From an uncultured Pelagibacteraceae bacterium (lineage in GTDB: Bacteria; Pseudomonadota; Alphaproteobacteria; Pelagibacterales; Pelagibacteraceae): a DNA stretch of 64,000 bases. Positions 1 through 5,461 of this stretch are shown in pieces. Position numbers and translations under genes: made by a program. Location: contig CABZCX010000004.1 in assembly GCA_902524345.1 (NCBI GenBank), positions 39,334 to 103,333 on the forward strand. The letters run 5' to 3'. Within the stretch, counting starts at the first letter, position 1; the number at the start of each line of letters is the position of its first letter. A model generated the notes under the pieces. The model searched no databases. It saw only the letters and a program-made list of their open reading frames with translations, and had not been told where the DNA came from.

Positions 1-488
1 AATATCACTTTTCCAAGAATTTTTTTAATTTTTGAATTAATTGAATGAACAATTTTTGCATCCCATCCTATACCAGCCATTAAAAAGAAATAATTCTCGT
101 TAATTTTTACAAGATTAGAGGATTTATAATTATTAGAAATCAATACATTGACTATATCATCAATCTTTTTATTCATTGATAATTCAGCTTGCAATAAATT
201 TGCAGTCCCAGCAGGTATATAGCCTATAGCAAAATCGTCTTTAAAATTAAAATCATTCTTTATTAATTCATTAATTGCAAAAGAAACAGATCCATCTCCA
301 CCAGCAACTATTAATCGATCATAATTTTTTTGATTAAAGTTTTTAAAAATTTTCTTAGCTTGATTTATTGTTTTGGTCTCAAAGTATTCTACTGAATTAT
401 TTTCTTTTAACTTAGATAAAACCCTATTTATGAATTTTGATTTTCTTCCAGAGGAAGAGTTTTGATTGTAAATTAAACAATACAACAT
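1..488 (-). CDS. Diacylglycerol-kinase-like lipid kinase (partial, C-terminus beyond the window)
   Basis: This gene is absent from the ORF track because it runs off the left edge. Reading the minus strand from the ATG at 488 gives about 162 residues beginning MLYCLIYNQNSSSGR, without a stop. The stretch 'DRLIVAGGDGSVSFAINEL' carries the GGDG motif of the DAGK / sphingosine-kinase catalytic domain, and 'GYIPAGTANLLQAEL' matches the family's GTxN loop. Family members phosphorylate diacylglycerol or related lipids with ATP. It is divergent from plcP and shares a 98-bp promoter region carrying a Pho box in each orientation, so a role in lipid turnover under phosphate stress is likely (inference). 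The substrate cannot be decided from sequence. Confidence 0.8.
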   Translation of the reverse strand, partial: MLYCLIYNQNSSSGRKSKFINRVLSKLKENNSVEYFETKTINQAKKIFKNFNQKNYDRLIVAGGDGSVSFAINELIKNDFNFKDDFAIGYIPAGTANLLQAELSMNKKIDDIVNVLISNNYKSSNLVKINENYFFLMAGIGWDAKIVHSINSKIKKILGKVI

Positions 489-497
489 AATTAATCC

Positions 498-526
498 TTA
501 AAAAATTTTTAACAAATTTGTAACAT
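498..526 (+). promoter_or_regulatory. Candidate Pho box for plcP-agt
   Basis: Three 7-mers lie 11 bp apart: TTAAAAA (498), TTAACAA (509) and GTAACAT (520). Tandem 7-mers separated by 4 bp are the known geometry of PhoB sites. The last repeat ends 60 nt before the plcP ATG, close to the 68-nt distance seen at pstS. The same kind of 7-mer recurs before pstS in this window. Confidence 0.65.
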
Positions 527-553
527 TTAAATGAGATAAGAAATACATGATTC

Positions 554-571
554 GTGTTACAGTTGTATTAA
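554..571 (-). promoter_or_regulatory. Candidate reverse-oriented Pho box for the DAGK-like gene
   Basis: On the minus strand TTAATAC (571-565) is followed 11 bp later by GTAACAC (560-554), the same 7-mer and spacing as the plus-strand sites. It ends 65 nt before the ATG at 488. The two Pho boxes therefore face each other, with both -10 regions falling in the 27 bp between them. Confidence 0.5.
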
Positions 572-586
572 AATATAGGCCTTTAA

Positions 587-1399
587 ATGCCTAACATACT
601 TAAATACAAAAGCATTTTTATTTCTGATGTGCATTTGGGTACCAAGGGTTGTCAGGCGAAAAAACTTTTAGAGTTTTTTAAAAACTCAAGATCTGAAAAT
701 CTTTATCTTGTAGGAGACATTATAGATGTCTGGGAAATGCAAAAAAGTTTTTTTTGGCCTCAAGAACATAATGATGTAATCCAAAAAATTTTAAGAAAAG
801 CAAGACATGGCACTAAAGTTTTCTATATTATGGGCAACCATGATGAAATGTTAAGAAAATTTATTCCAATGAATTTTGGTGACATCCATATGGTTAATAG
901 AGTTATTCATGAGACAAATGCTGGAAAAAAATATGTTGTTGTTCATGGTGATGCTTGGGATGGTGTTATGAAACATGCTAAATGGCTATCTAAACTTGGA
1001 TCAATAGCTTACAATTTATTGTTACAAATAAATGTAATAATTAATTTCTTTAGAAGGTTGAGAGGAAAAGAATATTGGTCTCTTGCAAAATATTTAAAAT
1101 ATAAGGTTAAGAACGCCGTCAAATATATTGGTGAATATGAAAAAACACTCTCAGATTATGCAAAAAGAAAAAAATTTGATGGAATAATTTGTGGCCATAT
1201 CCATCATGCTGAGGATAGAGATTTTAATGGGGTCAATTATTTAAATTGTGGAGACTGGGTAGAATCTTGCACTGCATTAGCCGAAAATTACGATGGTAGC
1301 TTTGAAATATTATATTGGGATAAAATAAGAGAACAATATTTAGACACTCAAGAAATAATTAAACCTATTAAAAATGAAGACTTAAAAAAAGCTTCGTAA
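587..1399 (+). CDS. plcP: PlcP-type metallophosphoesterase (phospholipase C of lipid remodelling)
   Basis: A 270-residue calcineurin-like phosphoesterase with the full metal-binding set: SDVHLG (13-18), GDIIDVWE (43-50), GNHDE (83-87), HGDAWD (120-125) and GHIHHAE near 200. It resembles LpxH (UDP-diacylglucosamine hydrolase), but the family paired with a GT4 glycosyltransferase next to pst genes is PlcP. PlcP removes the head group of phospholipids to give diacylglycerol during phosphate starvation. Agt begins 3 nt after its stop, so the two are probably cotranscribed. A Pho box lies upstream. The PlcP rather than LpxH call rests on context; the catalytic fold is certain. Confidence 0.87.
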   Translation: MPNILKYKSIFISDVHLGTKGCQAKKLLEFFKNSRSENLYLVGDIIDVWEMQKSFFWPQEHNDVIQKILRKARHGTKVFYIMGNHDEMLRKFIPMNFGDIHMVNRVIHETNAGKKYVVVHGDAWDGVMKHAKWLSKLGSIAYNLLLQINVIINFFRRLRGKEYWSLAKYLKYKVKNAVKYIGEYEKTLSDYAKRKKFDGIICGHIHHAEDRDFNGVNYLNCGDWVESCTALAENYDGSFEILYWDKIREQYLDTQEIIKPIKNEDLKKAS

Positions 1400-1402
1400 T
1401 TA

Positions 1403-2410
1403 ATGAAAATTTTAATCGCAACAGATGCATATTTTCCACAAGTAAATGGTGTTGTAAGAACCTTGCATGAAACAGGTAAAATTTTAAAAGAACAAGGTCA
1501 TAGAATAGAATATATCACACCAGAATTATTTTTAACTTTTCCGATGCCAAAATATAATGAAATTAGAATATCTATTAATGTTTGGCCAAGAGTTGGTAGC
1601 TTAATAAAGAAAATAAAACCTGATGCAATTCATATAGCTACTGAAGGTCCTATAGGGACTATGGCAAGAAGATATTGTTTGAAGAATAAACTAAAGTTTA
1701 CCACAAGTTTTCATACAAGATTTGATAAATATCTTAAGCTTTACTTTCCTATTATACCTGCAAAATGGGCTGAAAAATTCTTAGCAAACTTTCATAATAA
1801 GGCTGAGAGAATCTTAGTAACAACAGAATCTATGAGAAAAGAATTAATCGATATAGGTATAGATAATAATAAAATGATTACTTGGACAAGAGGAGGCAAT
1901 CATGGAGCTTTTAAGAGTCCGAAAAAAATTGATTTACCACATAAAAGACCGATTTGGATTTATGTTGGAAGAGTTGCAGTTGAAAAAAACATAAGAGCTT
2001 TTTTAGAATGTGATTTAGAGGGTACAAAAATGATAATAGGAAAGGGACCTGATTTAAAAAAATTAAAAAAAGAATTTCCTAAAGATATTTTTTTAGGAGA
2101 AAAAACAAACGGTGAATTAGCGTCTCATTTTGCATCTTCCGATGTTTTTGTATTTCCAAGTAAAACAGATACATTTGGAATTGTAGTTTGTGAGTCTTTA
2201 AATTGCGGAACACCTGTAGCTGCTTATCCTGTTCCAGGTCCTAAAGATATATTTGAGGGTTCCAAAATAAATTGTTTAGATAATGATCTTAAAGTTTCAG
2301 CTCATAAAGCTTTGAAAGTTAATAGAAATGATTGTCTTGAATTTGCAAAAAAATTCACTTGGGAAGAAACAGCAAAAATATTTTTTAACAATATTTCACC
2401 AAATCATTAG
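1403..2410 (+). CDS. agt: GT4 glycosyltransferase, diacylglycerol glycosyltransferase (Agt)
   Basis: A 335-residue GT-B fold enzyme. The N-terminal half begins MKILIATDAYFPQVNGVVRT, typical of GT4 enzymes that glycosylate lipids. The C-terminal half has the nucleotide-sugar site 'DTFGIVVCESLNCGTPVAA' (E-X7-E type) near residues 250-275. Agt moves glucose or glucuronate to diacylglycerol made by PlcP, giving phosphorus-free membrane glycolipids. SAR11 cells make such lipids when starved of phosphate (established for a cultured strain). It follows plcP by 3 nt. The sugar donor cannot be read from the sequence. Confidence 0.85.
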   Translation: MKILIATDAYFPQVNGVVRTLHETGKILKEQGHRIEYITPELFLTFPMPKYNEIRISINVWPRVGSLIKKIKPDAIHIATEGPIGTMARRYCLKNKLKFTTSFHTRFDKYLKLYFPIIPAKWAEKFLANFHNKAERILVTTESMRKELIDIGIDNNKMITWTRGGNHGAFKSPKKIDLPHKRPIWIYVGRVAVEKNIRAFLECDLEGTKMIIGKGPDLKKLKKEFPKDIFLGEKTNGELASHFASSDVFVFPSKTDTFGIVVCESLNCGTPVAAYPVPGPKDIFEGSKINCLDNDLKVSAHKALKVNRNDCLEFAKKFTWEETAKIFFNNISPNH

Positions 2411-2475: not shown

Positions 2476-3621
2476 ATGGAATATTTCATCATTCTACTTA
2501 TAGTTGTTATAATTTATCTCCTCTATTTACTTAATCAAAAAAAAAACAAATCAATAAATACTGCTACAATAATTAATAAAAGAGAGGAAAAAACCAAAAG
2601 AGTAATTATTGATGAGCTTGAGGATCAATTTTTTGCATTAAATAAATTTAACATAATTAAATATGCCAATCCAAGTGCATTAAAAAGATTTGGAAGTAAT
2701 TTAATTGATAAAAACATATCTTCTATAATTCGAAAACCAGAATTAATAGAAAATATTGAAAAAGCTATTGTTGAAAATAAAACAAAAAATATTGACATTG
2801 AAATAGACCTCCCATCATATCAATTCTATAAAATTTATATTATTCCTGGCCCAACTCATTTGTTTACTGAACCAGACTCTGTTGTGTTATTTTTAAAAGA
2901 TTTTACTGAAATTACAAAAGCACAAAAATTTAAAACTGATTTTGTAGCAAATGTAAGCCATGAATTAAGAACACCTTTAATGGCAATCAAAGGATCACTA
3001 GAAACAATTGAGGGCCCAGCGTCTGATGATGAAAAGGCTAAAAAAAAATTTATGAAAATAATGACTGATCAATCAAATAGAATGGAAAATTTAATTAATG
3101 ATCTTTTAATACTCACAAGAATTGAATTAGAAGAACACATAAGGCCAAACTCTTTAGTTGATATAAATGATCTTTTCAAAACAATCATCAGTAATTTTGA
3201 GATTGTTTTAAAAAGAAAGAAATTAAATATTAATTTATCTCTCGCCAATCCAACAGTTGTTATTGGAGATGAAAAAAAATTACAAACTGTTTTTTCTAAT
3301 CTTTTAGATAATGCAATTAAATATTCAAAGGAAAATAAGTCTATTTTTATATCAAGCAAAATTAGCGATGGTAAATTGTTAGAAAAAAATTTTATGATCA
3401 GTATTAAAGACGAAGGTGTTGGCATTCCTCAAAGATATATTTCTAGAATTACAGAAAGATTTTTTAGGGTAGATCTTGAACAAAGTAACAAAGTTGGTGG
3501 AACCGGTTTAGGATTAGCTATTGTTAAACATATAGTTACTCAACATCGTGGACACTATGAGATTCTAAGTGAGGAAAACCAAGGAACTGAAATTCAAATT
3601 TATTTACCAGCGAAAACTTAA
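2476..3621 (+). CDS. phoR: Phosphate regulon sensor histidine kinase PhoR
   Basis: A 381-residue sensor kinase. One membrane helix (about 1-20) is followed by a PAS-like region (about 45-150) and the HisKA motif FVANVSHELRTPL with phospho-acceptor His162. The ATPase domain has N box DNAIKY, G1 DEGVGIP and G2 GGTGLGLAIV. It lacks a large periplasmic domain, as usual for PhoR, which senses phosphate through the Pst-PhoU complex. Its partner PhoB is encoded 6 kb downstream behind pstSCAB-phoU. It is separated from agt by 65 bp, so it may share transcription or have its own promoter. Confidence 0.92.
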   Translation: MEYFIILLIVVIIYLLYLLNQKKNKSINTATIINKREEKTKRVIIDELEDQFFALNKFNIIKYANPSALKRFGSNLIDKNISSIIRKPELIENIEKAIVENKTKNIDIEIDLPSYQFYKIYIIPGPTHLFTEPDSVVLFLKDFTEITKAQKFKTDFVANVSHELRTPLMAIKGSLETIEGPASDDEKAKKKFMKIMTDQSNRMENLINDLLILTRIELEEHIRPNSLVDINDLFKTIISNFEIVLKRKKLNINLSLANPTVVIGDEKKLQTVFSNLLDNAIKYSKENKSIFISSKISDGKLLEKNFMISIKDEGVGIPQRYISRITERFFRVDLEQSNKVGGTGLGLAIVKHIVTQHRGHYEILSEENQGTEIQIYLPAKT

Positions 3622-3711: not shown

Positions 3712-4320
3712 ATGGTTAAAATATTTAAAAATATTTTGATTTTTCCTTTTTTATTAAGCTCTATAACAACAAGTGTTTTTTCTAAAGATATCACAACATT
3801 ATTAAGAAATCAGCAACTTACAGTTTTTGATATTGGAATTTTTAGATTAGAGGCAGATTTGAAAACTTCATATCCTTCTATTAAAGATCATTTAGAAGTT
3901 ACTGAAGCTGAATTTTATACAGACGTAGTTACCTCGTATTCTAAAAATTCAATTGATTTAATTGTTTCTGTTCCTATGAATAGAAATCTCAAGAAGGAAA
4001 ATTATTTTTCAGATTCTTTTAGATGTAGGAATATTTTTAATTCTGTAAGAGATTTTTTATTGAGGAATGAAAATTTGAGTAATTATAGATATACTATGGC
4101 TACAAGCTATTTAACCTCTATATTTTCAACCCCAAGTTCATGGCCAAGCTGGAGATATGATGAAGAAATTAGAGAGGAATTAGTAAACTTAGTAAAACTA
4201 GAAATAACTTTACGTCCAACCAAAGAACTAGCTCTTAATGAACAGGTAAACCCTGTTTCATGTATTGGTGGCTTAGAAACTGATATTGATCAAATAATTA
4301 TATCAAAAAAATACAACTAA
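3712..4320 (+). CDS. Hypothetical secreted protein of the pho cluster
   Basis: 202 residues, not recognised. Residues 1-24 look like a Sec signal peptide (basic start, hydrophobic 'ILIFPFLLSSITTSVFS', cut near FSK). The mature part has two cysteines, in 'SFRCRNIF' and 'PVSCIGG', that could form a disulfide. No catalytic motif is visible. It sits between phoR and pstS on the same strand, 90 bp after phoR, which suggests a periplasmic role tied to phosphate limitation (inference). RBS and start are unremarkable. No homologue was recognised by eye. Confidence 0.75.
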   Translation: MVKIFKNILIFPFLLSSITTSVFSKDITTLLRNQQLTVFDIGIFRLEADLKTSYPSIKDHLEVTEAEFYTDVVTSYSKNSIDLIVSVPMNRNLKKENYFSDSFRCRNIFNSVRDFLLRNENLSNYRYTMATSYLTSIFSTPSSWPSWRYDEEIREELVNLVKLEITLRPTKELALNEQVNPVSCIGGLETDIDQIIISKKYN

Positions 4321-4332
4321 AAAGTTACCTTT

Positions 4333-4361
4333 TTAACAAAAGTGTAACAATTCTGTAATAT
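4333..4361 (+). promoter_or_regulatory. Candidate Pho box upstream of pstS
   Basis: Three 7-mers lie at exact 11-bp steps: TTAACAA (4333), GTAACAA (4344) and GTAATAT (4355). This matches the direct-repeat layout of PhoB sites and the repeats before plcP. The last one ends 68 nt before the pstS ATG. AT-rich sequence 'AATAAATTTATAC' downstream could supply the -10. Confidence 0.75.
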
Positions 4362-4429: not shown

Positions 4430-5461
4430 ATGAAAAAACTAACTATAGTAATTGCTTCTTTAGTTGCACTTTCAATTGCAACTGTTGCTCAAGCAAGAGA
4501 TCAAATTAAGATAGTTGGTTCTTCTACAGTATTCCCTTATGCAACAGTTGTTGCTGAAAGATTTGGTGGTTCAGGATTTAAAACTCCTGTAATCGAGTCT
4601 ACTGGTACTGGTGGTGGAGCTAAACTATTCTGTGCTGGTGTAGGTGAACAACATCCAGATATTACAAATGCATCAAGAGCTATGAAAGATAAAGAAAAAG
4701 CTCTATGTAAGAAAAATGGTGTTAATGATATCGTTGAGATCGTAATTGGTAACGATGGTATTACATTAGCTTACAGCAAAGATGCAAAACCAGTAAACTT
4801 TACTAAAGAACAATTATATTTAGCACTTGCTGCTCATACAGTTGTTGATGGTAAATTAGTTCCAAATATTTATAAAACTTGGGACCAAATTGACCCTAGC
4901 TTACCAAAACAAAAAATCTCAGTGATGATCCCACCAGGAACATCAGGAACTAGAGATGCTTGGAATTCTTTAGTAATGAAAAAAGGTATGACTAAAGAAG
5001 CTAAAGCTCTTTATAAAGCTGGTTTTGAAGCTGGAAATAAAAAATACAAAAAACCTCAAAAACTTTACAGAGAAGATGGTGCTGCTATTGAAGTTGGAGA
5101 AAACGATAGTTTAATCATCCAAAAGTTAACTCAAGATAAAGAAATGTTTGGTTTCTTTGGTTTCAGTTATTTCTTAGCTGCAAAAGATAAATTGCAAGCA
5201 GCAAGTATTGATGGTGGACAACCGTCATTAAAGTCTATTCAAGACTACAGTTATGCTGTTGCTAGACCATTATTCTTCTACGTGAAAAAAGCACACGTTG
5301 GAGTAATTCCAGGCTTACATGAGTTTGTGAAAGAATTCACAACTAAGAAAGCTATTGGAAAAGGGGGTTACTTAGCAGACATTGGTTTAGTGCCATTAGA
5401 CTCTAAGTTGTATAAAACAACTAGAACTAATGCTACGAAGCTAGTTGCTATGGGTAATTAA
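4430..5461 (+). CDS. pstS: Phosphate ABC transporter substrate-binding protein PstS
   Basis: 343 residues with a clear signal peptide (1-22, ending VAQA). The phosphate-binding pattern is present: 'KIVGSSTVFPYA' after the cleavage site, 'ESTGTGGG' and 'PPGTSGTRDAW'. PstS binds inorganic phosphate in the periplasm and delivers it to PstCA. The SD 'GAAAGGA' precedes the ATG, and a three-repeat Pho box lies further upstream. A strong terminator directly follows, so pstS is probably made in excess over the membrane subunits. Codon choice looks richer in GC-ending codons than the neighbours, as in highly expressed genes (impression, not measured). Confidence 0.96.
   Translation: MKKLTIVIASLVALSIATVAQARDQIKIVGSSTVFPYATVVAERFGGSGFKTPVIESTGTGGGAKLFCAGVGEQHPDITNASRAMKDKEKALCKKNGVNDIVEIVIGNDGITLAYSKDAKPVNFTKEQLYLALAAHTVVDGKLVPNIYKTWDQIDPSLPKQKISVMIPPGTSGTRDAWNSLVMKKGMTKEAKALYKAGFEAGNKKYKKPQKLYREDGAAIEVGENDSLIIQKLTQDKEMFGFFGFSYFLAAKDKLQAASIDGGQPSLKSIQDYSYAVARPLFFYVKKAHVGVIPGLHEFVKEFTTKKAIGKGGYLADIGLVPLDSKLYKTTRTNATKLVAMGN

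Follow-up and report, generated by a model that had tools for sequence, protein, structure and literature searches.

In the Pelagibacter-type SAR11 genome analysed here, the 98-bp region between a gene for a diacylglycerol (DAG) kinase-like protein (DAGK) and the plcP-agt genes probably harbors a derived face-to-face pair of putative PhoB-activated promoters, by which the kinase would have acquired its own phosphate control opposite plcP-agt. PhoB~P activates transcription in the direction in which its direct repeats point. In E. coli, the consensus of these repeats is CTGTCAT-N4-CTGTCAT (PMC3465305). From the sequence, we infer PhoB binding to both sites, activation of DAGK and an alternation between the two directions. 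Within the window, i.e. the whole 64-kb stretch of DNA that was analysed, the gene order is DAGK (minus strand), the 98-bp gap, plcP, agt, phoR, a hypothetical gene, pstS, pstC, pstA, pstB, and phoU. The main features are listed below; group A designates loci of the window type, and group B a sister group with a plcP about 82% identical.

1-488, minus strand: DAGK-like lipid kinase, N-terminal part (PF00781; similarity to DgkB, 2qv7)
498-504, plus strand: weak candidate outer half-site TTAAAAA, in register (3.3 bits; GTAACTA or GTAATTA in group B)
509-526, plus strand: putative plcP Pho array TTAACAA-ATTT-GTAACAT (18.8 bits, rank 3; present in every complete gap read)
527-553, no strand: 27-bp core that both promoters would share (of the same length in groups A and B and in L029)
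549-553, no strand: GATTC, a CcrM-type site (GANTC) within this core (invariant in 54 haplotypes)
554-571, minus strand: putative DAGK Pho array TTAATAC-AACT-GTAACAC, read from 571 down (15.6 bits, rank 4; one clade only)
587-1399, plus strand: plcP, metallophosphoesterase removing phospholipid head groups (PF00149; about 78% identical to the L032 ortholog)
1403-2410, plus strand: agt, GT4 DAG glycosyltransferase (PF13439/PF00534; about 83% identical to the L032 ortholog)
2476-3621, plus strand: phoR sensor kinase (phoR_proteo, TIGR02966, 282 bits, under the cut-off of 334; pst genes adjacent)
4333-4361, plus strand: three-box pstS Pho array, the reference site (pstS matrix)
4430-5461, plus strand: pstS, phosphate-binding protein (PF12849)

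Domain matches bear out the gene identities proposed in the initial annotation: a PF00781 lipid kinase, a PlcP-type metallophosphatase, and a GT4 glycosyltransferase. The whole DAGK gene extends past the window edge (G000:C4:38937-39821) and encodes 294 amino acids. Its product passes the gathering score of PF00781 (DAGK_cat; 83.5 bits vs. a cut-off of 23.6) and resembles DgkB (PDB 2qv7) over nearly its full length (E = 4e-20); as far as sequence can tell, this similarity to a solved protein settles the fold class. DAGK shares the PF00781 domain and the GGDG motif (here GGDGS) with the bacterial DAGK_cat lipid kinases DgkB, YegS, and BmrU, but differs in scoring below the curated cut-off of TIGR00147, the YegS/Rv2252/BmrU lipid kinase subfamily (102.4 vs. 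118.65). It is regarded here as a putative DAG kinase, with a predicted substrate and role. The GT4 gene immediately follows plcP, as in the PlcP-Agt glycolipid remodelling module. In the family, plcP and DAGK occur in nearly identical sets of genomes (132 and 135 of 297, respectively). Among the listed genomes of the window's genus, their presence differs only where plcP sits at a contig end, and the exceptions are confined to other genera, for instance g5 genomes having one gene without the other. The L032 genome is a single contig of 1,456,888 bp, which we take to be the size of the HTCC7211 genome. At positions 917-2481 of L032, two extra acyltransferase-like genes, absent from the window, lie between agt and phoR, convergent with agt; they are possibly the ornithine-lipid genes olsB/olsA.

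The geometry of the two arrays is regular. On the plus strand, the 7-mers TTAAAAA, TTAACAA, and GTAACAT start at 498, 509, and 520; on the minus strand, TTAATAC and GTAACAC occupy 571-565 and 560-554. Both series keep an 11-bp register, and each array contains the two same-strand 7-mer direct repeats at 11-bp spacing that define a Pho box. Coordinates, strands, and spacing had all been correctly described in the initial annotation. The roughly 27 bp it placed between the arrays is exactly 27 bp (527-553), and its distances of 60-65 nt between each array and its own start codon are measured at 60 nt for plcP (526 to the ATG at 587) and 65 nt for DAGK (554 to the ATG at 488). Each array points at its own gene, at a distance close to the 68 nt found for pstS. 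The proposal of three plus-strand 7-mers stands for those at 509 (7.7 bits) and 520 (8.6 bits); that at 498 is in register but weak by itself (3.3 bits) and was rejected as a full box in the window's genome. It may still be a real outer half-site, since it is in register and reads GTAACTA or GTAATTA in sister group B. A further in-register candidate at 531 (ATGAGAT) was discarded because of its negative score. The minus array is made up of two half-sites only, the first of which is middling (4.4 bits). The evidence for each array lies in its two-box core. A -10 element would be expected some 10 bp downstream of each box. When the stretch between the arrays (527-553) was scanned for sigma-70 promoters, it yielded no pair, and only weak -10 candidates are visible there by eye, in either direction.

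The assignment of these sequences to PhoB is supported by an 18-bp Pho-box matrix built from 73 pstS upstream regions of the family, the plcP-DAGK sites being left out of the training. Over the approximately 128,000 positions of both strands of the window, the sites at 509 and 571 (minus) rank third and fourth, just behind two overlapping pstS sites, and both resemble the established SAR11 pstS Pho promoters. In random sequences having the dinucleotide make-up of the window or of intergenic DNA, 0.17 (Markov model of the window) to 0.37 (composition of intergenic DNA) matches of at least 15.6 bits are expected per 64 kb, both strands included; four are observed. A genome-wide count of KTAAYA repeats with one mismatch gave fewer matches than its reversed control, this consensus being too loose.

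The distribution of the two arrays is very different. The plcP-DAGK gap was read in about 80 genomes, and many members of the window's lineage are single-cell genomes (Pelagibacteraceae/Pelagibacterales), among them a SAG-MED series. The plus array is found in every complete gap, with scores of 12.8-21.7 bits, in six genera (g1, g2, g4, g7, g9, and g12). The minus array is found in groups A and B and in L029 (12.8-17.7 bits), always at the same 27-bp distance from the plus array. It was not found in L024-L028, L030, L032, L040, L041, L043, or L044, nor in any other sampled genus, the highest score on the minus strand there being 5.9; most plcP-DAGK lineages are thus without it. In the DAGK protein tree, its presence corresponds to one branch and one change (SH-aLRT 98), with the array-less lineages on the other side. 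Because presence maps to one branch, a single gain in the window's DAGK allele clade would be the simplest reading. The initial annotation had proposed that PhoB couples the kinase to head-group removal and glycosylation; the opposed arrays behind this proposal are real, but such coupling is not general to SAR11, the minus array being absent from L032 and from the other sampled plcP lineages.

Within the clade, the arrays are kept. Addition of 80 loci from named genomes gave 54 distinct haplotypes, in which the mean minor-allele share is 0.005 and 0.021 for the plus boxes and 0.008 and 0.071 for the minus boxes, vs. 0.18 for the linker at 527-530 and 0.17 for the plcP leader at 572-586. Nearly all of the 0.071 comes from one T/C site (TTAATAC or TTAACAC), a position that is also either C or T in pstS boxes. 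In L029, the two minus boxes persist with a changed linker and changed 7-mers (GTAACAA TATT GTAACGT). Because its boxes are near-invariant, its variant Pho-compatible, and the 27-bp gap kept, the minus array looks selected as a Pho box. Conservation beyond that of the surrounding DNA is thus family-wide for the plus array, and limited to one clade for the minus array. The loss of the 11-bp-spaced 7-mers in close relatives, named beforehand as an argument against the proposal, is not what the intergenic comparison of these haplotypes gives. Finally, L024-L028 are mosaic: agt is window-like (at least 90% identical DNA), whereas DAGK and the gap are different (60-74%); therefore, kinase allele and promoter travel together. 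In these genomes, phoR and pstS are window-like too, whereas another lineage is the source of DAGK and the promoter region.

Three other readings can be weighed against these data. According to the first, the array would have switched the sign of the control: without it, the plcP operator would abut the DAGK start and PhoB~P would block the kinase during starvation, and the gained array together with a wider leader would have turned blockage into activation. Indeed, counting from the DAGK start codon, the first base of the plus array is the 3rd-9th in array-less lineages of the same genus, vs. the 18th-21st in those having the minus array. However, genera g7 and g9 have the plus array at a distance of 29 without any minus array, and we consider this scenario rather unlikely. 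It supplements the face-to-face promoters and is not contrary to them. According to the second reading, the minus array would serve plcP. Located past the transcription start of that gene, it would let PhoB act as a roadblock or fine-tuner, DAGK being constitutive. PhoB-family regulators are able to repress from downstream sites, and the minus array would be inside or beside the plcP leader. Yet its orientation and its 65-nt distance suit a DAGK activator (cf. 68 for pstS and 60 for plcP), it tracks the DAGK allele clade, and a roadblock needs neither the strict orientation nor the 27-bp gap found in three subgroups, all of which makes this role improbable. Last, a chance or non-functional match, or conservation through an RNA element of the plcP leader, would fit the youth of the clade relative to the family and the position of the array sequence within the leader region, but is very unlikely given the low chance expectation (0.17-0.37 per 64 kb), the free variation of the adjoining leader bases next to an array whose common change is Pho-compatible, and the two boxes kept in L029 despite a changed linker and different 7-mers.

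We therefore retain the face-to-face pair as the preferred reading. Two PhoB operators of opposite orientation would lie in the 98-bp region. The older of them, the plus array (509-526, flanked by weak half-sites), would serve to activate plcP-agt throughout the family; the minus array (571-554) would be a later gain in the window's DAGK lineage, placing the DAG kinase under its own activation by PhoB~P. Both -10 elements would have to sit in the shared 27 bp, and because of this the two promoters should exclude each other. On a given DNA molecule, the polymerase would be recruited one way or the other, so that the directions alternate under one activator signal. Thus, of the claim that overlapping promoters fire in both directions, the opposed arrays are confirmed, but simultaneous firing is doubtful over 27 bp. 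PlcP and Agt convert phospholipid to glycolipid via DAG (PMC4796936, PMC8231724). Under phosphate starvation, PlcP would yield DAG and Agt would glycosylate it, while the kinase would return surplus DAG to phosphatidic acid, providing essential phospholipids and reducing DAG build-up.

The shared core also contains a GANTC site. GANTC follows the plcP Pho array at a distance of no more than 45 bp in all 12 of the 12 divergent representatives (18 sites), the best of 23 permuted control words reaching 6 of 12. It is also present in 8 of the 17 pstS representatives, where its middle base may be G, A, T, or C (best control, 3); the plcP and the pstS representatives are related by descent, so both counts overstate independence. 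A general enrichment of intergenic GANTC was considered and rejected in the window (2.3 vs. about 2.0 per kb), and the Pho-promoter signal is therefore not a genome-wide trend. Both GcrA and a methylase belonging to the Pfam family of CcrM are encoded in the window's genome. Pelagibacter DNA carries methylated GANTC (PMC9516812), and CtrA is reported missing there (PMC2877005). It is possible, though we advance it only tentatively, that the SAR11 Pho promoters of the plcP-DAGK module also carry a CcrM/GcrA input. If so, by acting on methylated GANTC, GcrA would link lipid remodelling under phosphate starvation to the state of DNA replication, in an organism reported to be without CtrA.

Two other features were noticed in the window. 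A third Pho-like array, TTAATAA ATTC TTAACAT AACT GGAATAA, lies at 16873-16845 on the minus strand (second pair, 15.1 bits), upstream of a small membrane ORF, a low-molecular-weight phosphatase/ArsC-like gene (16602-16171), and a GlpF-type aquaporin (16181-15522). Together, these genes may form an arsenate detoxification set under Pho control. Next to the pstS array, on its upstream side (about 4306-4323), is a short inverted repeat, AACTAAAAAGTT, which most relatives keep, even with a different upstream gene.

SAR11 bacteria are abundant in the ocean and are thought to have few transcription regulators. For this reason, the lineage-specific gain of an operator that rewires one lipid-remodelling enzyme would be a clean natural experiment. 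If the preferred reading is true, phosphate starvation should elicit a response of the DAG kinase in the window's lineage, but not through activation by PhoB in strains of the HTCC7211 type. This reading further suggests a return step from DAG to phosphatidic acid that does not appear in the available portions of the PlcP-Agt pathway descriptions (PMC4796936, PMC8231724). In the open-access literature searched, we found no account of a short core flanked by two opposed Pho arrays, no direct precedent for overlapping Pho promoters, and no description of such a gain in one lineage at the plcP-DAGK locus. The linkage of DAGK to plcP-agt and divergent Pho promoters are already known, and the facing arrangement and its lineage-specific gain appear new.

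Known systems share part of this organization. As far as the accessible text goes, a Pho box has been described upstream of plcP-cluster genes in marine bacteria including HTCC7211 (PMC4796936); the genes and the upstream Pho box are the same as in the window, but the opposed DAGK array is not described in that text, and L032 is without it. Similarly, in the parts of the reports available, a DAG kinase is found with metallophosphoesterase (or LpxH-like) and glycosyltransferase genes in low-phosphate SAR11 gene sets (PMC3686209) and in HIMB59 phosphate islands (PMC10734472); these concern gene content only, vs. promoter arrays in the window. Finally, E. coli has divergent gene pairs sharing one PhoB site (PMC3465305). 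As in the window, PhoB-type sites lie between divergent genes, but one putative site serves two genes in E. coli, whereas in the window each gene has its own oriented array, 27 bp from the other.
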